DNA from: a virus
DNA: 23,516 nucleotides
Direction: 5' to 3' (one strand)
Virus record (IMG/VR): IMGVR_UViG_3300046005_000141
Coordinates: 1-23,516 of that record
Every line of letters begins with the position of its first letter. Positions within the stretch are counted from its first letter, which is position 1. Shown piece after piece: positions 6,658 through 16,417 of the stretch. Below the pieces are notes generated by a model, which had not been told where the DNA came from, made no database searches, and saw nothing but the letters and a program-made list of their open reading frames with translations. Position numbers and translations under genes: made by a program.

Positions 6658-7116
6658 ATGGCATTAACACAAGTAACACCAGACGTACTGCATAATATAC
6701 AAAGTAATGTTACCCAAGTAGGTACCTTAAGTAACCTAACGGTTACGGGAAACATCTTATCGGGTAATGTAATTGCTACAAATTTTACAGGAACTGCCAG
6801 TCTGGCAAATAATGCTAGTTATCTTGGAGGCACATCTGCGGCTAGCTATGCACTAACATCAACTGTAATTGGATTAAACCAATCTTGGCAAGATGTTATA
6901 GGTAGTCGTTCGGCAGGTGTTACCTATACAAATTCAACTGGCAAATCAATAATGGTTGGTATTAGAACGCAAGGCCCCGCATACATTACTGTTGGCGGAG
7001 TTATAACCGCTTACAGTGGTATTAATAATGCAAGTAACTTCCTTGGCACTATAGTGCCAAACGGTGCTAGCTATTATATGACCGGCGCAGTATACAATTG
7101 GGCAGAATTGAGATAA
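6658..7116 (+). CDS. Short tail fibre-like protein with 'foot' N-terminus (152 aa)
   Basis: The N-terminus MALTQVTPDVLHNIQSNVTQ followed by VGTLSNLTVTGNI is nearly the same as that of the gene at 7513, and is a typical start of short phage fibre proteins. It is followed by LANNASYLGGTSAASYAL, another common fibre phrase. The C-terminal half (QSWQDVIGSRSAGVTYTN...) ends in MTGAVYNWAELR, which looks like a small receptor-binding or capping domain. A weak GAGA ribosome binding site precedes the ATG. Probably a small fibre or accessory adhesin. It could work with the assembly chaperone that begins four bases after its stop. Confidence 0.7.
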   Translation: MALTQVTPDVLHNIQSNVTQVGTLSNLTVTGNILSGNVIATNFTGTASLANNASYLGGTSAASYALTSTVIGLNQSWQDVIGSRSAGVTYTNSTGKSIMVGIRTQGPAYITVGGVITAYSGINNASNFLGTIVPNGASYYMTGAVYNWAELR

Positions 7117-7120
7117 TAAC

Positions 7121-7471
7121 ATGAAACTATATAAATCACTAACAAATGAAATTTTTGCCTATGAGGAAGATGGCTCACAAGACCATATAATTCCAGAAGA
7201 CTATGTTGCAGTTACTAACGAACAAGCAGATTTGATTATAGCCACAAGAATAACAGCAGAGCAAAATAAATTAATAGCAATTGGGCTATTACAAGCAACT
7301 GACTGGGCAATGGCATCCGATGTAGCTGATACATCTAACAATCTATATCTAACAAACCAAGCTGATTTTGCCGCTTATCGAGATGCAGTTAGACAGCATG
7401 CGGTTTACCCAACTCCCGGAATCATTATCTGGCCTACCTTACCTCAAGCAGCCTGGGTAACGCTAACATAA
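7121..7471 (+). CDS. Tail fibre assembly chaperone-like protein
   Basis: A 116-residue protein starting MKLYKSLTNEIFAYEEDGSQ. The second half has the layout of phage tail fibre assembly chaperones of the Phage_tail_APC/Caudo_TAP type: LLQATDWAMASDV, then an AYRDAVRQ helix, then a proline/tryptophan end, IIIWPTLPQAAW. Known members help fold or trimerise the fibre encoded next to them and are not necessarily in the virion. Its start lies four bases after the short fibre gene at 6658-7116, so that protein, or the adhesin upstream, is the likely client. Assignment rests on motif memory, not on a search. Confidence 0.68.
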   Translation: MKLYKSLTNEIFAYEEDGSQDHIIPEDYVAVTNEQADLIIATRITAEQNKLIAIGLLQATDWAMASDVADTSNNLYLTNQADFAAYRDAVRQHAVYPTPGIIIWPTLPQAAWVTLT

Positions 7472-7512
7472 CTGTTAGCTTTGAGCAGTATATATTATAA
7501 TAGAGAAATAAC

Positions 7513-7971
7513 ATGGCATTAACACAAGTAACTCCAGACGTATTACACAGCAACCAAGGTAATATTACCACAGTTGGTACCTTGAGTAACCTAACGGTTT
7601 CTGGTACCTTGACACAAGATGGTGTTACTGGAGGTATTGTACCAGTCGGCGGCGTCGCTCCTTCACAGATTGTAACTTCTAATTTATATCCATTTATTAA
7701 AAATAAAAAAATGAATCCTGTTGAATTGCATATTGACGAATTTGCCTACAAACCCTTAGATACTATTGAAATTAATCATCCTCGATATAAACTAGCAGAT
7801 GTTGCTTATCCGCTATTTGCAGTTGACAATATGCCCAATCCATATAATAAAAAATATAGAATGATAGATGGCAGACATAGACTGCTAAAACAAATTAATT
7901 CAGGTAAAAGCGTATTTTTATTCTATATCTTTGATTATCATACTATTAAACATTACATTCACCAAATATAG
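7513..7971 (+). CDS. Fibre 'foot' fused to a ParB/sulfiredoxin-like domain (152 aa)
   Basis: The first ~50 residues (MALTQVTPDVLHSNQGNITT, then VGTLSNLTVSGTL) copy the short fibre foot of the gene at 6658. From about residue 60 the sequence changes in character. It has NPVELHIDEFAYKPLDTI, then HPRYKLADVAYPLFAVDN, then YRMIDGRHRLLKQINSGK near residue 117. The DGRHRL---NSGK pattern is that of ParB N-terminal/sulfiredoxin-like domains, which bind nucleotides in several families. The base composition becomes clearly more AT-rich at the junction (about 7676). An internal ATG at 7711 (MNPVELH) could start a free ParB-like protein, but I see no good ribosome binding site there. It may be a recombinant between a fibre cassette and a once separate gene. 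Function unknown. Confidence 0.6.
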   Translation: MALTQVTPDVLHSNQGNITTVGTLSNLTVSGTLTQDGVTGGIVPVGGVAPSQIVTSNLYPFIKNKKMNPVELHIDEFAYKPLDTIEINHPRYKLADVAYPLFAVDNMPNPYNKKYRMIDGRHRLLKQINSGKSVFLFYIFDYHTIKHYIHQI

Positions 7972-8033
7972 TATGAGCTAGATTAGTTAATAAATGAAGT
8001 ATAATTTAATCAAACTTAAAAATTTCAAACTCG

Positions 8034-8041
8034 CATAAATA
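8034..8041 (+). promoter_or_regulatory. T4-type late promoter box for the giant fibre gene
   Basis: CATAAATA followed by CTACT is one base from the T4 late consensus TATAAATA. RNA should start near 8047, giving a leader of about 86 bases before the ATG at 8133. Four other close matches in the window stand upstream of genes, three of them clear structural genes, which supports the call. Confidence 0.7.
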
Positions 8042-8055
8042 CTACTAAACGAACA

Positions 8056-8102
8056 AACTGAAAGTCCCGAGGGGAATATGGAACCGCAGGGTGATTACAG
8101 TT
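8056..8102 (+). ncRNA. Candidate structured RNA element in the giant fibre leader
   Basis: A GC-rich island in an AT-rich leader. An outer stem AACTG/CAGTT (8056-8060 with 8098-8102) closes two small hairpins: TCCC/GGGA (8065-8068 with 8072-8075) and ACC/GGT (8083-8085 with 8090-8092). The second is flanked by GA on both sides, an arrangement that can form tandem G-A pairs as in kink-turns. Alternatively the same bases hold a short upstream reading frame, ATG 8078 to TAA 8104 (MEPQGDYS), with a GAGG site just before it. I do not recognise a known riboswitch or ribozyme. Confidence 0.35.
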
Positions 8103-8132
8103 AATAGAATATATTAATTTGGAGCAACACTC

Positions 8133-11100
8133 ATGTCGGTTTTAACCCGCATCAAGAATAATCAAATCTTAGATTCAACAATTTACGCTAACGCTAAGAT
8201 TGTTCCTGGATCTATCGTAGGTACACTGTTTAATAGTAACCTAACAATGACAGCAGATGTTACTATTACAGGTAACTTGACTGTTCAAGGGGCTAGTACT
8301 TATCTAACAGTAGCATCTACTAATACCTACGTAAACGATCCGTTAATTGTTATGAATAATGCCTTTTCGGGCACTAATACATACGATTTGGGATTTATCT
8401 TTAATCGTGGATCGCTATTAAACCAAGCTATTATATGGAATGAAAGCAGCAACGAGTTTAGATTTGTAGGCACTACAGAAACTGGAACAACCTACGGTAA
8501 TATTAATCAAACTAACTATGCCAATGTGCGACTAGGCAACTTAGATGTTGTGTTCTCAGCAGGGTTTGGGTCGATAGAAAGTCAAGGATCAATCACCGGC
8601 GCAAGTTTAAATGTTTCGGGTAACGTATTAGCTAACACAGTTGGAGCTAGCTATCTAACTGCAAGTACAGCAACAATTGGTAATATTTCAGCTGTCAACT
8701 TTGGCAACACAGGCGCAGTATTTACTGGAGCAAGCATTAACCTAAGCGGTAATGTATTAGCTGCAGACGGCGTGTTTAATGCGTTAACAGTCAACGGCAA
8801 TGAAACTGTAACTGGTTATTTAAATGTTACTGGCAATATTCTAGGCGCTGATGCTACTTTTGATTCTGCAACCGTTGACGGCAATGCAACTGTAACTGGT
8901 TATTTGAATGTAACTGGTAATGTATTAGCCACGGGCGGCGTATATGATCTCTTAACAGTTAACGGCAATATTGCATCAACTGGATTTATTAATACTTCGG
9001 GTAACGTATCAGCTAGCCAATTGATAGCAGAACGCCTTACAACTCGCAGTGGCTACGGTAACATACTCCTAACACAATTCAATAGTATTTTTGCTGACGC
9101 TAACGGTAGTCAGAACATCGTGGCGATCCAATTAAGCACAACCGGCCTGTCAGATGGTATGGGTATGCTTGGAACAACTAATCTTGACAGTGTCCTATAC
9201 TCTAGTCGAGGTATTGTTTTCCGCACTGGTGCAACAATGCGTAATACAGACACCCCAACTGGTGGTGTCACACTAGTAGCCATCACAGCCACAGGTGACC
9301 TATGGGCTAACAGCACTACCCCAGCATCCAACACAACAACTGGTGCGTTTGTAGTCAAAGGTGGTGTAGGTATTGGCGGCAACTTATATGTAGGTGGCGG
9401 ATTAAACGTAACCGGTGATGAGACAATAACCGGTTATTTGAATGTAACTGGTAATGTAATAGCTAATGTAGTAACAGCAAGTCAGATTAACACAACAGGA
9501 AATGTACTCGCTACTGCTGGGGTGTTTAACAGTTTGACAGTAAACGGCGACCAAGCTGTAAACGGAAACGTAAACGTAACAGGCAATATATTAACTGCAC
9601 AGTTAGACGCAGGGCAAATAAACACCACAGGTAATGTACTAGCAGCAACAGTTGGCGCAGCCTACGTAACTGCGAGCACAGCAACATTTGGTAACATATC
9701 AGCAGCAACTATTGGTAATTCTACTAGTCTAGTAACTGGCCTAACTGCTGAATTCAGCGGTAACGTAATTGGCGGACTAGCAAGTTTTGCTGCAATCAAC
9801 AATACTCCTATAGGCAATGCAACACCAAGTACCGGCGCATTTACAACATTAACATCTAGTGGAACTACACAGTTCACTGACAGCACCAACGCTACAGGAG
9901 TAGGTACAGGCGCAGTACAGGTTACTGGCGGTATGAGTGTTGGCGGTAACTTATTTGTTGGCGGTAACATTAATTTTGTTGGTAGTAGTTTTGTATTAAC
10001 TGGTAATAGCGGTGTGTTTTACGGTGATGCAAACGGGTTTAAGGCACTATACGCTGGTGTAACAGGCTATGCAACATTGCCACAAACTGTATTCCAAACA
10101 TCTGCAAATTACAATGGTTATGTACAGAATAACTTTGAAAATATCAATACAGGAGCACAAGCAAGTACTGATTGGGTAGCTACCGCAGGTGAAGGTACTG
10201 ATACTGATCATTATATTGACATGGGTATCACAACAGTGAACTGGGATGGTACACAAGATAATAGTCTGACCAATGCAGTTGGAGCCATTGATGGCTACAT
10301 GTATGTACAAGGTAATCTTACTACAGGTCAAGGCGGCAACTTAACAGTTGGTGCAAGTACTCCTGGCGCTAAAGAAGTTCGAATCATTGCAGGTGGCAAT
10401 ACAGCATCATATATTTCAGCTGTATTTAGAAATCCAAATACTCCAGCAACTACTACAACAACCGGTGCATTTACTGTAGCCGGTGGGGTTGGTATTACTG
10501 GTAATGCAGTCATCGGTGGTAATTTACTAGCACAAGGTGCTACAGTATTACAAAGTACACTAACTACAACTGGTGCAGTATCATTTACTAATTCAACAAA
10601 TTCTACAAGTGCCACACAAGGTGGTGCATTAACAGTAACTGGCGGTGCAGCAATTGCTAAAGATTTGTGGGTTGGTGGCAATGTATATGCTGCTAACATT
10701 ATTGGTACAAGTTATCAATACCTAACTATTGTTGATCCACTAGTAAACTTCCGTGCTAACAGCACATATCCGTATAGTTATGATATTGGATTCTACAGCG
10801 CATTTACTGGCGGCCCTGCTAACGTTGAAGCAACCAGCGGAGTTATTCGTGATAACGCCGACGGCGTGTGGAAATTCTTTAGTAATGCAGGTGAGCCGGC
10901 AGGCGGATCTGTAACGTTCGACAGCGACACATTGTGGGACGGTATTAAAGCAGGTAACTTATTCTTAACAGATGCAACAAATTCATCATCAAATAGTACT
11001 GGGGCATTCATTGTAACAGGTGGTGCGGGAGTTGGTGGCAGTTTATATGCCCGTGATATCCAATCAACTGTTATTGGTAACGTAGCACCAGCAGCTGGCT

Positions 11101-13889
11101 TCTTTACACAACTAAATGCCACTGGTAATGTTGTTGCTACAGACTATCGCGGTGGTTCATTAAATGTAACAGGCAATGTAAGTGCCGCAACATTAAACGC
11201 AGGACAAATTAACACAACAGGTAACGTATTAGCTGCTACTGTTGGCGCTGGCTATGTTTCAGCTAGCACAGCAACGTTTGGTAACATTTCAGCTGTAACT
11301 ATTGGCAACACTGGCGCTACTGTAACAGGCACTAGTGGCGAGTTTGGCGCAGTAACTTCAGGGTTTATTGGTAATACAGGAACTGCATTTACTGGTGCAA
11401 GTGTAAATGTTACTGGCAATGTATCAGCAAGTACTTTTGTTGGCAACTTAATTACTAGTAACAGTGGGGCAGTAACTGGTGAAATATTTGCCGAAGATAC
11501 AGTATTAAATATTGCATCAGGCACAAGCAATATAAGAATTTATTCATCTAACAATATTGCCATTGGCTCTAACGGTGTTGCTAATGTTGTTGTTATAGGT
11601 ACAACTTCAACTACATTAACTGGAAACTTATTACCTAGTGCCAACTTAACTTATAATTTAGGTAGCCTTACACAACGTTGGGACTCTGGATATTTTGCTG
11701 GCGAAGTGTTAGCAAACACAGTATCAGCGTTGTCAGTGTCAGCAACTAACGCAACATTTACTAACTTCTCAGCTGGTGCAATTGGAAATGTAGTTACTGT
11801 ATACACTGGCGCAAGTATTAATCTAGTAGGAAATGTGTTAGCAACTAATATTATTGTTAGTTCGGCTACAGTGAATGGTGATGTTTCTGGCGGGTTAGCA
11901 AGTTTTGCTGCAATTAATAATACACCAATTGGTAATGCTACTGCATCAACTGGTGCGTTTACAACGTTATCTGCAAGTGCAGGCATTTGGGCTAACAGTT
12001 CAACAGAAAGCACAAGTACATCAACAGGATCTATAGTAAGTGCAGGCGGCCTAGGCTTAGCAGGTAACATATTCCATGGTGGAGCATATTTAGACACAAG
12101 CGCAAGTAATTATATATTTGCAAGTACTCCGACTACAGTTGATGCATTTAAATCAGCAACTGATTTAGAATTAGGTGCTACAAGTGGTACATTAACCATT
12201 AACAACCCAACTGTAGTAGGTTCACAGTCAACACAAAACTTATATAATACTGTAGCAACTGCAATAAACTTTGCAGGTGAAGCAAATGTAACAATTGGCG
12301 CACCAAGCGGTGTTACTACTGTTAGCGGTGGTGCTAATGTGCGTGCAATCACTGATAGCACAACATATACAACTGGTGCATTAACAGTAGCAGGTGGAGT
12401 TGGCGTTGCAGGCAATATAAACATTGCTGCTGATAAAAAATTAGTAATAGGTGCTGAAGCAGCAGGTGCTATAGTACGTGCAAATTCTGCAATTAGTGTT
12501 ACAGGAAATATTACTCAAGATCTAACCGTATCAGTAAGAAATCTAAGCAATATCGGAACTAGCGAATTTAGCGTAGAGTCAGATACTGGATATACTGCAT
12601 TGTTTGGCATTACAAGTTCAGCATATTCAGATACACCTAGCAGACTAGCGGCATCTACTGCATACGTTCAATCTTTTGCAACAGATTTGGTTATCGGCTC
12701 GGGATTTGACGTTGATATAACTGTTGGCGGCACAGACGAAGCGAATGTAATTGCATCTTATAGTGCTACACATTCAAACGTAACAATATACAGCACAGGT
12801 CCAGCAATAACACCAAGAACTGGTGCATTTACTGTAGCAGGTGGTGTTGGTGTTGGTGCTAACTTAGTAGTCAACAGTGGGGCAATATTTAACTACGGTC
12901 AAACAGCCAGCAACGTTGTGATCAGAGGTGTAACCAATGCTGCAGGTGTAGTGTATGATGCAGGCAATCAACACTTGTTTGTAAATGGCCCAGGATACGA
13001 AGGTAATACAAGACCAATTAAAGGTGCAACATTTGCAATAAGATCACAGGATGCTATTTTAATTCCAGTAGGATCTACATCTAAACGTCCAGGTAATGAT
13101 GGTAACGTTGACATTACTGGTATGATGCGTTTCAACTCAACCAGTAATAACCTTGAATGGTATAACGGTACAGATTGGGCAATACCAGGTGCAAGTACTA
13201 CTGTAATTACAGACCAACAGATACTAGGTAACGGTGTAGCAACAACGTTCACTATAAATAATGCAAGTACTACTAACAGCACAATTGTAAGTATTAACGG
13301 TGTTGTTCAAGCACCGGTTACTGCATATGGTATCACTGGAACTACATTAACATTTACAGAAGCTCCTGCAGATGGCGACCTAATCGATGTCCGCACACTA
13401 ACAACTACTTCAGTTATTGCTGGGTTAACTAGTGCAAACGGATTCATGAGCATTGATTTAACTGATGTAACTAATACCTATGCAAATATTACCGCAGGCG
13501 CTAGCTCAGCAACTACAAGAATCAGCATCACAACAGATGGTATTGTCAGTTTAGTAAATGATGCTAAGATAGCTAATCAAAATCCAAGTATTAATATTGC
13601 CAGCGCAAGCACACCATATGTATTAGATACATTTGTGCAGACTAAATTTAGCACTGCAAAATATGTAGTACAGGCTAAACGCGGTGCCACAAATATTGAA
13701 AGTATGGATGCTATTGTAATCACTGACGGTACAGGTAATGCATTTGTTAGTGTATATGGTGTGATTAATAATGGAACTGCAATGGGCACATTAAGTGCTA
13801 ACGTGTTAGCAGGAAACGTACAATTGTATTACACTAGCACAAGTTTAACTAACAGTAACGTTCGTGTAACTACAAGCTACATTAAATAA
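8133..13889 (+). CDS. Giant modular tail fibre protein (1918 aa)
   Basis: Starts MSVLTRIKNNQILDSTIYAN, with a GGAG site eight bases before the ATG. The N-terminal region has a unit with DPLIVMNNAFSGTNTYDLGF. It is followed by more than a thousand residues of repeated short beta modules: GNVLA...V-G-LTVNG units, TIGN-GA-FTGASIN-SGNV units, a SFAAINNTPIGNAT-STGAF unit present twice, and about eight GAF-V-GGVG-GGNL-VGG units. Near the C-terminus lie the RFNSTSNNLEWYNGTDW unit and the VSINGVVQAPVTAYGI unit, also seen in the fibre at 2836. No enzyme domain or signal peptide is seen. It is probably a long trimeric fibre, transcribed late from 8034. Its length, well above the T4 long-fibre subunit gp37 (about 1026 aa), suggests module multiplication. 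Confidence 0.85.
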   Translation: MSVLTRIKNNQILDSTIYANAKIVPGSIVGTLFNSNLTMTADVTITGNLTVQGASTYLTVASTNTYVNDPLIVMNNAFSGTNTYDLGFIFNRGSLLNQAIIWNESSNEFRFVGTTETGTTYGNINQTNYANVRLGNLDVVFSAGFGSIESQGSITGASLNVSGNVLANTVGASYLTASTATIGNISAVNFGNTGAVFTGASINLSGNVLAADGVFNALTVNGNETVTGYLNVTGNILGADATFDSATVDGNATVTGYLNVTGNVLATGGVYDLLTVNGNIASTGFINTSGNVSASQLIAERLTTRSGYGNILLTQFNSIFADANGSQNIVAIQLSTTGLSDGMGMLGTTNLDSVLYSSRGIVFRTGATMRNTDTPTGGVTLVAITATGDLWANSTTPASNTTTGAFVVKGGVGIGGNLYVGGGLNVTGDETITGYLNVTGNVIANVVTASQINTTGNVLATAGVFNSLTVNGDQAVNGNVNVTGNILTAQLDAGQINTTGNVLAATVGAAYVTASTATFGNISAATIGNSTSLVTGLTAEFSGNVIGGLASFAAINNTPIGNATPSTGAFTTLTSSGTTQFTDSTNATGVGTGAVQVTGGMSVGGNLFVGGNINFVGSSFVLTGNSGVFYGDANGFKALYAGVTGYATLPQTVFQTSANYNGYVQNNFENINTGAQASTDWVATAGEGTDTDHYIDMGITTVNWDGTQDNSLTNAVGAIDGYMYVQGNLTTGQGGNLTVGASTPGAKEVRIIAGGNTASYISAVFRNPNTPATTTTTGAFTVAGGVGITGNAVIGGNLLAQGATVLQSTLTTTGAVSFTNSTNSTSATQGGALTVTGGAAIAKDLWVGGNVYAANIIGTSYQYLTIVDPLVNFRANSTYPYSYDIGFYSAFTGGPANVEATSGVIRDNADGVWKFFSNAGEPAGGSVTFDSDTLWDGIKAGNLFLTDATNSSSNSTGAFIVTGGAGVGGSLYARDIQSTVIGNVAPAAGFFTQLNATGNVVATDYRGGSLNVTGNVSAATLNAGQINTTGNVLAATVGAGYVSASTATFGNISAVTIGNTGATVTGTSGEFGAVTSGFIGNTGTAFTGASVNVTGNVSASTFVGNLITSNSGAVTGEIFAEDTVLNIASGTSNIRIYSSNNIAIGSNGVANVVVIGTTSTTLTGNLLPSANLTYNLGSLTQRWDSGYFAGEVLANTVSALSVSATNATFTNFSAGAIGNVVTVYTGASINLVGNVLATNIIVSSATVNGDVSGGLASFAAINNTPIGNATASTGAFTTLSASAGIWANSSTESTSTSTGSIVSAGGLGLAGNIFHGGAYLDTSASNYIFASTPTTVDAFKSATDLELGATSGTLTINNPTVVGSQSTQNLYNTVATAINFAGEANVTIGAPSGVTTVSGGANVRAITDSTTYTTGALTVAGGVGVAGNINIAADKKLVIGAEAAGAIVRANSAISVTGNITQDLTVSVRNLSNIGTSEFSVESDTGYTALFGITSSAYSDTPSRLAASTAYVQSFATDLVIGSGFDVDITVGGTDEANVIASYSATHSNVTIYSTGPAITPRTGAFTVAGGVGVGANLVVNSGAIFNYGQTASNVVIRGVTNAAGVVYDAGNQHLFVNGPGYEGNTRPIKGATFAIRSQDAILIPVGSTSKRPGNDGNVDITGMMRFNSTSNNLEWYNGTDWAIPGASTTVITDQQILGNGVATTFTINNASTTNSTIVSINGVVQAPVTAYGITGTTLTFTEAPADGDLIDVRTLTTTSVIAGLTSANGFMSIDLTDVTNTYANITAGASSATTRISITTDGIVSLVNDAKIANQNPSINIASASTPYVLDTFVQTKFSTAKYVVQAKRGATNIESMDAIVITDGTGNAFVSVYGVINNGTAMGTLSANVLAGNVQLYYTSTSLTNSNVRVTTSYIK
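9342..12875 (+). repeat. Eight copies of the GAF-V-GGVG-GGNL-VGG fibre module
   Basis: Related units of about 17-20 residues occur near 9342, 9908, 10464, 10618, 10999, 12026, 12374 and 12819, spaced irregularly. DNA similarity is moderate, so the copies are old rather than fresh duplications. A second set, INTTGNVLA-TVGA-Y followed by V-ASTATFGNISA, is found near 9606 and 11197, with a diverged copy near 8609. Confidence 0.75.
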
Positions 13890-13892
13890 TAT

Positions 13893-14630
13893 ATGTTAAA
13901 AATAGCCAAACATCATCGCAAAAATTACCAAGGTGAGAATATTGTCATTGACAGAAATTACACCGACGGTGTTTGGCATGACACTGTTGAACGAGTTCAC
14001 AACGCCGTTGAGAATAATCAAATATCTAACCGCGCTGTGGTATTAGGCAACGGTCCTACTAGACTAACATTTGATCTACAGCATCTTAAAAATTATAGCG
14101 GACACTTAGGTGCAGATACAGTGCAAACCTACGGATGTAACGCACTGTATAGGGACTTTACTCCTGATTTTTTAATAGCAGTGGGTAATGTTAATCTCAT
14201 TAAAGAAATTGCTGAATCAGATTATGTAGATAATAATATTGTATATACTAATGCTATACATCTATTAGAGTACCCAAATAAGTTTTATTTGATTCCACAT
14301 GATCCCTACACTGATGCCGGTACTACTGCATTGTATTTGGCAGCATTTGACGGACATAAAAAGATATTCATGTTAGGGTTTGACGGACAACCTGATCCAG
14401 GATATAACTACAATGTCTATGCTGACACAGTTAACTATGATCCTAAACGAACAACAGTATTAGAGCAAAAATGGATTAATGATCGTAAACAAGTTTTTGA
14501 CACGTACTCTGATGCTGAATTTATTCGTGTTACGCAGTTTAACACTGAACGCATTCCTGAGCAGTGGAAATATTGCACTAATTTTAGACAAATTTCTCAT
14601 ACAGAATTTGTCTTAGAAGCGAGCCTATAG
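13893..14630 (+). CDS. Rossmann-like MptE/DUF115-type protein (245 aa)
   Basis: The ATG lies three bases after the giant fibre stop, with no clear Shine-Dalgarno, so translation is probably coupled. The motif VVLGNGPTRLTFDL near residue 48 matches the nucleotide-binding start of MptE-like and DUF115 proteins. It is followed by YGCNALYRDFTPDFLIAVGN, then DAGTTALYLAAFDGHKKIFM and LGFDG, then NVYADTVNY. This set is familiar from marine T4-like phages, and related cellular proteins include pterin pyrophosphokinases and sugar-transfer-associated proteins. The reaction here is unknown. Its place behind a fibre gene would fit modification of a fibre or of the host surface, but that is inference. It converges with the Nudix gene, overlapping by six bases. 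Confidence 0.6.
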   Translation: MLKIAKHHRKNYQGENIVIDRNYTDGVWHDTVERVHNAVENNQISNRAVVLGNGPTRLTFDLQHLKNYSGHLGADTVQTYGCNALYRDFTPDFLIAVGNVNLIKEIAESDYVDNNIVYTNAIHLLEYPNKFYLIPHDPYTDAGTTALYLAAFDGHKKIFMLGFDGQPDPGYNYNVYADTVNYDPKRTTVLEQKWINDRKQVFDTYSDAEFIRVTQFNTERIPEQWKYCTNFRQISHTEFVLEASL

Positions 14631-15053
14631 TAGTTCTTCTAACGTTTTTAGTTTGTTTACTATAGTGTCAAAACTAATAGTTCGCCAAACACCCGGGTGC
14701 AAAGGTTTAGGGTGATCCTCTAAACTTACCCAACAAAAACCTCTATGTTCATGATTTAGATACGGAGCAAATTCTTCATCTATTGGAATGAGAAATGTAT
14801 GATAAGTGAATCTTCCGTTGCTGCTGGTAAACTTTTCTATAGGGATAACCTTAGTGCTAGAAAAATCGTAACCTAATTCTTCTTCTAATTCTCTATGTAA
14901 ACTTGACAATAACTGCTCACCGGGCTCGATGCCACCGCCTGCTAATCCCCAAGTGCCTGCGTATTTTTTAGTATCACGCAGAATAAAAAGATAACGTCTG
15001 GTGGTAGTACAATAGATAAAAGTTCCTACACCTTCTATAACACCAGTGTCCAA
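14625..15053 (-). CDS. Nudix hydrolase
   Basis: A complete Nudix box G-x5-E-x7-RE-L-x-EE-x-G is present (GGIEPGEQLLSSLH-RELEEELGY), about residues 48-70 from the TTG start. It holds the glutamates that bind the catalytic metal. Upstream is FILRDTKKYAGTWGLAGGGI and downstream the usual beta/alpha fold. Nudix enzymes hydrolyse nucleoside diphosphates linked to another group; the substrate cannot be predicted here. An ATG at 15107 would give 160 residues but overlap the upstream gene by 73 bases, and its extra residues look like a frame shadow. I prefer TTG at 15053, which has an AGAGGG site just before it; a GTG at 15092 is also possible. The family is frequent in T4-like phages (T4 NudE is one example). 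Confidence 0.85.
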   Translation of the reverse strand: MDTGVIEGVGTFIYCTTTRRYLFILRDTKKYAGTWGLAGGGIEPGEQLLSSLHRELEEELGYDFSSTKVIPIEKFTSSNGRFTYHTFLIPIDEEFAPYLNHEHRGFCWVSLEDHPKPLHPGVWRTISFDTIVNKLKTLEELL

Positions 15054-16417
15054 AGTCCCTCTTTGTACTCGCCTTCCCAGCTTTTTACCCACTGATTGTT
15101 GTTCCATTTATATTGAGTGCCTGTAGTTAGATTACTTACATATTGTAACGTAGAAGTTGATTGACTGTCAAATGATATACTCCAGTGTGTGCCGTTGTAT
15201 TCAATAATATCATTTGCATGTGCTACTAAGTCGCGGCCATCGGAACCCTGCCAAGCATCAGCACCACTGGCATTATTAAAATCACCAATGTCGTTTAGTA
15301 TTAGATATCGAGTACCAGCTGCTGGCTGTGTAATGCTAGTATTCGTATTTTTATACGGGTCAATAATAGCAGATATTGCTGTCAGGGTGTTTGTTGGGTA
15401 AGTGTCAATGTCGGCATTAAAAATTAATATGCTGTCGTCGGTGGGATGATAACTAACAGTACCAACAACCTCAGAAGCTTCGTCTTCTTGTAGTAATCTA
15501 ATTTGACTAGTGCCATTTTTTAATTGGCCGTAGACATTAACCAATGAACTCCAACTGTCTTTAGTACCTATTTTGGTTGGAATAAGTAGCGTAGGATCGC
15601 GCGATGTAGTTACTTCGCTAGATTTCAGTAGAGTCAGCTGATTGCCTATTAATAAAATTCCATAGCCCATCGGAGTAAAGTATTGTCTAGATATAATATT
15701 AGTATCATTTAAAATATCATCAGCGAGGTTACCATCGCTGTCGTAGATACTGGCAATAATTTTTTGTATGACTCCAAGTTTTTTAACTTTAGCAGGAGCA
15801 CTAACCCAAACAGGCAAACTAAATGTTAGCGTCATAACATCGATAGGATTTTCTGTACCGATAGGAACACTACGACTTGACCAGTTAGTAGAATCTAAGT
15901 ATATCACTGATAAGCTAGTCCAATCGATATAATTGTCTGTGCTTTGTATTTCTAACGCAGGATTAAATAGGCCAACTATCTGTTCAAATAGCTGTAATTT
16001 TTGTTTAGTGTTGCTGGTCCATATGTCCAATTTTAGTTCGATAGTATAAGGAACAGGCATAGTGCGTTCGATAGTAAATGCATTACCTTGGCGATTTTCA
16101 AATTCTTGTGTTTCTTCGTTATAGTATTTTTGACGAATGTGCATCTTGCCAATATAATTAGGTTCTTGTACACGGGCTCTGTCGTAACTAATACCACTGA
16201 TATAAACTGTCATTGCAGGAACTGCTGGCATAATACTACCGCCGGAGTTTTGACTGATGATAGATTGAACTTGTCGACTGCTATCTCCCCAGTAAACTGG
16301 TACACGCTGTAGAGTGTTATTACCAAACTCTACTTGAAATCCTGATACAATCCGAATGAACTGTGCTAAAAATCGTTCAATCTGTGCATCATAAAAAAAT
16401 TGTTGACTAGCTGCCAT
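15035..16417 (-). CDS. 15: Tail sheath stabiliser and completion protein, gp15-like
   Basis: The N-terminal half has the plan of T4 gp15: QFFYDAQIERFLAQFIRIVS, then GFQVEFG with RVPVYWGD, then SIMPAVPAMTVYISGISYDR, then MPVPYTIELKLDIWTSNT and LFNPALEIQSTDNYIDWTSL. In T4, gp15 caps the tail tube and sheath and joins the tail to the neck. At 460 residues it is much longer than T4 gp15 (about 272). The extra C-terminal region contains units such as ANDIIEYNGTHWSISFD and GTQYKWNNNQWVKSWEG, likely surface decorations. The start ATG overlaps the gp14 stop by one base (TAATG), so the two genes are coupled. It is read leftward with gp14 from the late promoter at 17866. Confidence 0.78.
   Translation of the reverse strand: MAASQQFFYDAQIERFLAQFIRIVSGFQVEFGNNTLQRVPVYWGDSSRQVQSIISQNSGGSIMPAVPAMTVYISGISYDRARVQEPNYIGKMHIRQKYYNEETQEFENRQGNAFTIERTMPVPYTIELKLDIWTSNTKQKLQLFEQIVGLFNPALEIQSTDNYIDWTSLSVIYLDSTNWSSRSVPIGTENPIDVMTLTFSLPVWVSAPAKVKKLGVIQKIIASIYDSDGNLADDILNDTNIISRQYFTPMGYGILLIGNQLTLLKSSEVTTSRDPTLLIPTKIGTKDSWSSLVNVYGQLKNGTSQIRLLQEDEASEVVGTVSYHPTDDSILIFNADIDTYPTNTLTAISAIIDPYKNTNTSITQPAAGTRYLILNDIGDFNNASGADAWQGSDGRDLVAHANDIIEYNGTHWSISFDSQSTSTLQYVSNLTTGTQYKWNNNQWVKSWEGEYKEGLWTLVL

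Follow-up and report, generated by a model that had tools for sequence, protein, structure and literature searches.

How does a domain resembling ParB and sulfiredoxin (Srx) come to stand directly behind the foot of a tail fibre, in one and the same reading frame? This question is raised by IMG/VR record IMGVR_UViG_3300046005_000141, a single metagenomic record of a marine phage. The record, analysed over its whole length of 23,516 bases (hereafter the window), contains a 152-codon open reading frame (ORF) at 7513-7971 that runs uninterrupted from ATG to TAG. We consider it most likely (with a probability of roughly 70%) that this hybrid is a scar left in the tail-fibre region by an illegitimate deletion, which kept the frame by chance and yielded a product that is neutral or has a residual function, rather than a new weapon.

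A mosaic of three homology blocks

The closest relative of the hybrid region is found in L001-L003 (IMG/VR 3300042541_000210, 3300034082_000705 and 3300042937_000216), apparently one virus in three records. Comparison with L001 and with further loci carrying the same foot (L013-L022, L026-L028) gives the following features:

6658-7116, + strand: short fibre with the same foot, a paralogue (68% identity of the foot; phrog_18834, E = 1e-20)
7121-7471, + strand: tail-fibre assembly chaperone-like gene (Pfam Phage_tail_APC and PHROGs phrog_4912 matches)
7490-7512, + strand: upstream leader with the putative translation signal of the hybrid ORF, common to other foot genes (in blastn, the homology of the L013-L022 foot genes starts at 7490, 5' of the ATG)
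7513-7606, + strand: fibre foot, residues 1-31 (MALTQVTPDVLHSNQGNITTVGTLSNLTVSG), by 77-85% DNA identity to the foot genes of L001, L013-L022 and L026-L028
7603-7653, + strand: collar-fibre linker, residues 31-47 (GTLTQDGVTGGIVPVGG), 80% DNA identity to L001 1543-1593
7654-7662, + strand: putative recombination junction, 9 bases matching neither parent (left homology stops at 7653, right homology starts at 7663 or 1-2 bases earlier)
7663-7968, + strand: predicted ParB/Srx-fold domain, residues 51-152, equivalent to residues 17-118 of the free-standing protein (phrog_35149; 90% identity to the L001 protein; AlphaFold2 and Foldseek on this homologue)
7972-8132, + strand: spacer ahead of the long-fibre gene; L001 is collinear here (blastn, 7663-8386 = L001 3989-4668, 78%)
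8133-13889, + strand: long fibre, downstream of this slot both here and in L001 (ORF list; blastn)

In local DNA alignments the homology blocks abut at 7606 and at 7653-7663. The first (7490-7606) is 77-86% identical to the foot-gene starts, and in most of the foot-gene loci matched it takes in the leader ahead of the ATG; this foot is common to fibres of the same phage group. The second block codes for GTMTQDGVVGGIVPVGG in L001, where it directly precedes the Collar domain match (weak, E = 0.0015) of a 698-aa fibre, and the third extends from the ParB-like gene across the spacer into the beginning of the long fibre. The collar-fibre homology thus ends just short of the collar domain, and neither a fibre body nor a collar or adhesin domain is present in the hybrid. 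An earlier note on this DNA had described the first ~50 residues as a paralogue of the fibre at 6658, continuing without a break into a DGRHRL-type ParB-like domain of different base composition. The open frame and the composition (46% GC in the foot, 27% GC in the ParB part) are as described, and so is the paralogy (68% protein identity over residues 1-38). The paralogous part is shorter, at about 31-38 residues, since the identity to the 6658 fibre covers only the first 38 and residues 31-47 match the collar-fibre linker.

A search of IMG/VR for the same junction of foot and ParB-like domain gave no match, and the junction is found on no second contig. As the hybrid is seen once, in a single 23.5-kb metagenomic record, some residual room is left for an assembly chimera, i.e. 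a fusion that is not natural. However, the junction contains no repeat (of the exact repeats nearby the longest, 20 bases, lies at the foot start, some 120 bases off), which makes mis-assembly through a repeat unlikely, and downstream the sequence remains collinear with L001 into the long fibre that both share. We therefore give an artificial join only a very slight chance.

As far as can be judged from the sequence, expression of the hybrid should start at the foot ATG at 7513, whose leader is intact. The possibility that translation begins only at ATG 7711 was not borne out, because the sequence upstream of the foot is intact and the family does not use the corresponding Met68 as a start. 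The start codons of relatives lie 33 residues further upstream, and by eye 7711 has no clear ribosome site ahead of it. Between 7971 and 8133 there is no ORF of at least 60 aa, so no linked immunity gene, and the next gene is the long fibre.

The ParB/Srx-fold domain and its free-standing relatives

The C-terminal part is indeed a separate domain, as had been proposed, although homology to free-standing proteins starts at residue 51 and not at 55. PHROGs searches assign residues 87-149 to phrog_35149, a family of unknown function (E = 6e-18, or 2e-18 with the C-terminal part alone). No Pfam match (e.g. PF02195) was obtained for the window protein or for seven relatives; the single sequence found no match in the PDB, and a profile search gave SerK as best hit at a non-significant E = 0.9. 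With the AlphaFold2 model of the L001 homologue (pLDDT 96.2, pTM 0.88) as Foldseek query, PDB ranks 1-24 all belong to the ParB/Srx superfamily (Srx, ParB, Noc, KorB, SbnI or related), mostly with probabilities of 0.96-1.00. Srx 6ky4, Noc 7ng0, KorB 8qa9 and ParB 7bm8 each reach 1.00 at TM 0.4-0.5, the best E being 1.1e-3. This count includes 1vk1, titled just conserved hypothetical, which we take to be a ParB-fold entry. In a viral structure library the matches are ParB/Sulfiredoxin-named proteins of phages EL and Psa21. By this model, residues 51-152 clearly belong to the ParB/Srx fold superfamily, which bears out the relation suggested by the earlier note; the closest subfamily is not discernible, because the matches are modest (most E-values between 1e-3 and 1e-1, query-normalised TM-scores mostly from 0.35 to 0.48).

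The P-motif GxxR (Box II) appears as G-[RK]-H-R in all aligned members and as GRHR within DGRHR in the window, and the family-invariant residues N75, P76, Y81, R82, D85, G86, H88 and R89 (L001 numbering) are kept in the hybrid. Of the 16 family columns with at least 90% conservation, two (M1 and W9) are absent from the window owing to the truncation, and two Ile columns are occupied by Phe, as they are in L001. Sulfiredoxins carry a catalytic Cys in a GCHR-type motif; membership of this group was rejected because that Cys is missing, with Arg in DGRHR and no Cys at all in the window domain. Nor is the domain a chromosomal or plasmid ParB, as the homologues are single domains of ~118 aa without a helix-turn-helix (HTH), dimerisation domain or ParA-binding motif. 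The free serine kinase SerK/SbnI has DGHHR in place of the DGRHR of the window, whose domain of only about 100 residues is without the C-terminal part of SerK. What the window domain shares with the superfamily of ParB-CTPases, sulfiredoxins and SerK/SbnI is the predicted fold and the P-motif.

In L001-L003 the domain is 90% identical over 102 residues and occupies the same slot before the long fibre, followed by a collinear spacer, but it forms a separate 118-aa gene (start MIHLMEDEWQI) that is the last of a cassette, its ATG overlapping the stop of a preceding oxygenase-like gene. This is the free-standing version that the earlier note had suggested looking for. The hybrid keeps residues 17-118 of this form; the first 16 codons, including the nearly invariant W9, are gone, and so is the ancestral coupling to the stop of the oxygenase-like gene. 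Between window and L001 the domain shows dN of 0.063 and dS of 0.28, and nine of the ten replaced residues are seen elsewhere in the family (4.3 expected). This pattern of substitution shows a domain under apparent constraint, though one not divisible into pre- and post-fusion parts.

We scanned IMG/VR with a profile of the family and obtained 205 loci; reading the 80 listed together with loci found earlier gave 55 distinct proteins, none of which is fused to a foot. Conversely, the domain has no match in ten other records with the same foot (16 to 178 kb), all of them fragments, so that its absence from those viruses is unproven. Distant free-standing homologues occur in the cultured cyanophages S-SKS1, ACG-2014i, S-SCSM1, S-RIM32, S-N03 and Sf-FP1. 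These proteins, annotated as 'chromosome segregation' or hypothetical, share with phrog_35149 and the window the invariant NP..YR.[ILV]DG[RK]HR, but are 24-33% identical, have an extra WKGKH and a Cys-rich insert and lie in replication or metabolism modules, none being fused to a foot. In genome contigs the single sequence found nothing, and the profile found four matches, two of which (L149 and L150) are complete cassettes in one Rhodobacteraceae metagenome bin, where they are probably phage or prophage sequence.

A conserved cassette behind fibre genes

In 27 loci (19 clusters below 70% identity) the genes follow one another on one strand in the order chaperone-like, oxygenase-like, ParB-like, mostly with a fibre-like gene directly upstream. 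The oxygenase-like family neighbours the ParB-like gene at most of the loci studied, the loci themselves having been picked by the ParB-like gene; in the more distant L068, L071, L087 and L102 the ParB-like gene adjoins an oxygenase-like gene on the opposite strand. Four of 15 members of the chaperone-like family match Phage_tail_APC (weak, best E = 0.005), and two have a weak match to phrog_4912 (tail fibre assembly). For the oxygenase-like family no meaningful Pfam match was found, and no PHROG match for the two members scanned. In structure comparison its model (pLDDT 94) resembles 2OG-Fe(II) oxygenases, prolyl hydroxylases among them (6t8m, 9blq, 6f0w, PHD2), with E of about 1e-4. The conserved motif consists of H-T-N, a distal H and R-x-S, with Asn replacing the carboxylate of the usual HxD, and therefore implies that the metal site is altered or that the protein is not active as an oxygenase. 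This family with HTN for HxD (L043 3420-3959 and relatives) had one match among 50,697 phage records.

Gene order and predicted fold suggest that the cassette is possibly a fibre-modification module. The ParB-like protein is probably an NTP-binding or phosphotransfer protein, with the oxygenase-like protein as its partner and perhaps the fibre as their target. A more specific version, which we regard as doubtful, is that of an uncharacterised phage module altering tail-fibre residues, for instance by hydroxylation followed by phosphotransfer, the window holding a naturally occurring construct in which the ParB-fold member is attached to a fibre foot. Our literature searches for a link between fibres, hydroxylases and ParB proteins found nothing, and the conserved gene set is not described in the papers found. 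The cassette seems to us more interesting, and worth more attention, than the fusion itself: if fibres are enzymatically modified, this could matter for host recognition.

The oxygenase-like gene has no match in the 23.5-kb window by profile search. A weak tblastn hit of the oxygenase-like protein at 7265-7438 (E = 0.005) was dropped, as it lies inside the chaperone gene and lacks most of the invariant residues.

Origin of the fusion

The arrangement would be accounted for by an ancestor in which the chaperone, the oxygenase-like gene and the ParB-like gene stood in this order behind a short fibre of the collar type that bore the usual foot. A single deletion that began immediately ahead of the collar domain, ended at codon 17 of the ParB-like gene and preserved the frame would have taken out the last part of the collar fibre together with the genes following it, and would have shortened the ParB-like gene by 16 codons. 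The product, translated from the foot's own start, would consist of nearly the whole ParB/Srx domain behind a 50-residue leader. Since the immediate parent (a collar fibre with this foot, then the cassette) is in none of the records, the single event is what we infer. The scar as such, already considered in the earlier note, is supported because the closest relatives encode the domain as a gene of its own in the corresponding position, and because not one of the 55 distinct proteins read shows a fusion. Its detail differs from the proposed replacement of an adhesin domain, as a collar fibre appears to have lost its end and captured the last gene of the downstream cassette. The fusion would be neutral or residual in function because both the partner and the N-terminal strand are gone. 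Two observations speak against a mere scar: the break sits where the core fold begins in the L001 model, as it might in a selected fusion, and the domain appears constrained.

The same observations, along with the intact leader of the foot gene and a core fold that is complete from residue 17 in the L001 model, would also fit a functional protein that is not carried on the virion, with the foot as a mere expression leader and the ParB-like protein keeping its usual job in the cell. We think this unlikely, as the partner oxygenase-like gene is not in the window (though possibly elsewhere in the genome) and the nearly invariant W9 is missing. An in-frame joint at the edge of the core fold and the retention of the family-invariant residues might also be expected of a selected virion-borne effector, in which the ParB/Srx domain would be anchored to the baseplate or fibre through the foot, so that the particle carries an NTP-binding domain. 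Precedents for such proteins come from a phage ParB-fold::DUF1983 fusion and from the Tox-ParB domains of polymorphic toxins. The former binds ATP, DUF1983 being common at the C-termini of receptor-binding proteins (PMC12704722); we keep the effector among the alternatives because it demonstrates that a functional fusion of the receptor-binding type is possible. Like the hybrid, it joins a ParB fold to a domain associated with receptor-binding proteins, but DUF1983 is another domain, and the hybrid joins an N-terminal foot without a fibre body. In Tox-ParB toxins (PMC3482391) the ParB fold likewise forms the C-terminal domain of a surface-type protein, whereas the hybrid has no visible immunity gene and no secretion or pre-toxin domains. 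There is one example only; its homologue stands free, next to an oxygenase-like gene as partner; the N-terminal strand and W9 are lost; and there is no fibre body. The effector, an idea also raised in the earlier note, finds nothing specific in its favour and is decidedly improbable. On the preferred reading, that of a deletion scar, the fusion shows how fibre genes here are severed and joined anew at the foot, with the result that open hybrid frames are left which annotation would label tail fibre or ParB.

Some further observations concern the surroundings. A conserved GGGGAATATGGAACCGC stretch lies in the long-fibre leader (window 8072-8090, L001 4352, L018 8663, L017 about 7710) with a TAAATAC late-promoter-like site upstream of it; the region ahead of the long fibre gave no Rfam match for an RNA element and its folding is not unusual. 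Amid the tail genes of the window, a Nudix-like hydrolase gene was recognised by eye from its REL-type motif (14625-15107, - strand). Finally, in L017 (7519-7635) and also in L014-L016 and L020, the same slot before the long fibre holds a 38-aa ORF made up of no more than a foot and a short fibre end; this is another deletion remnant, comparable to the hybrid.
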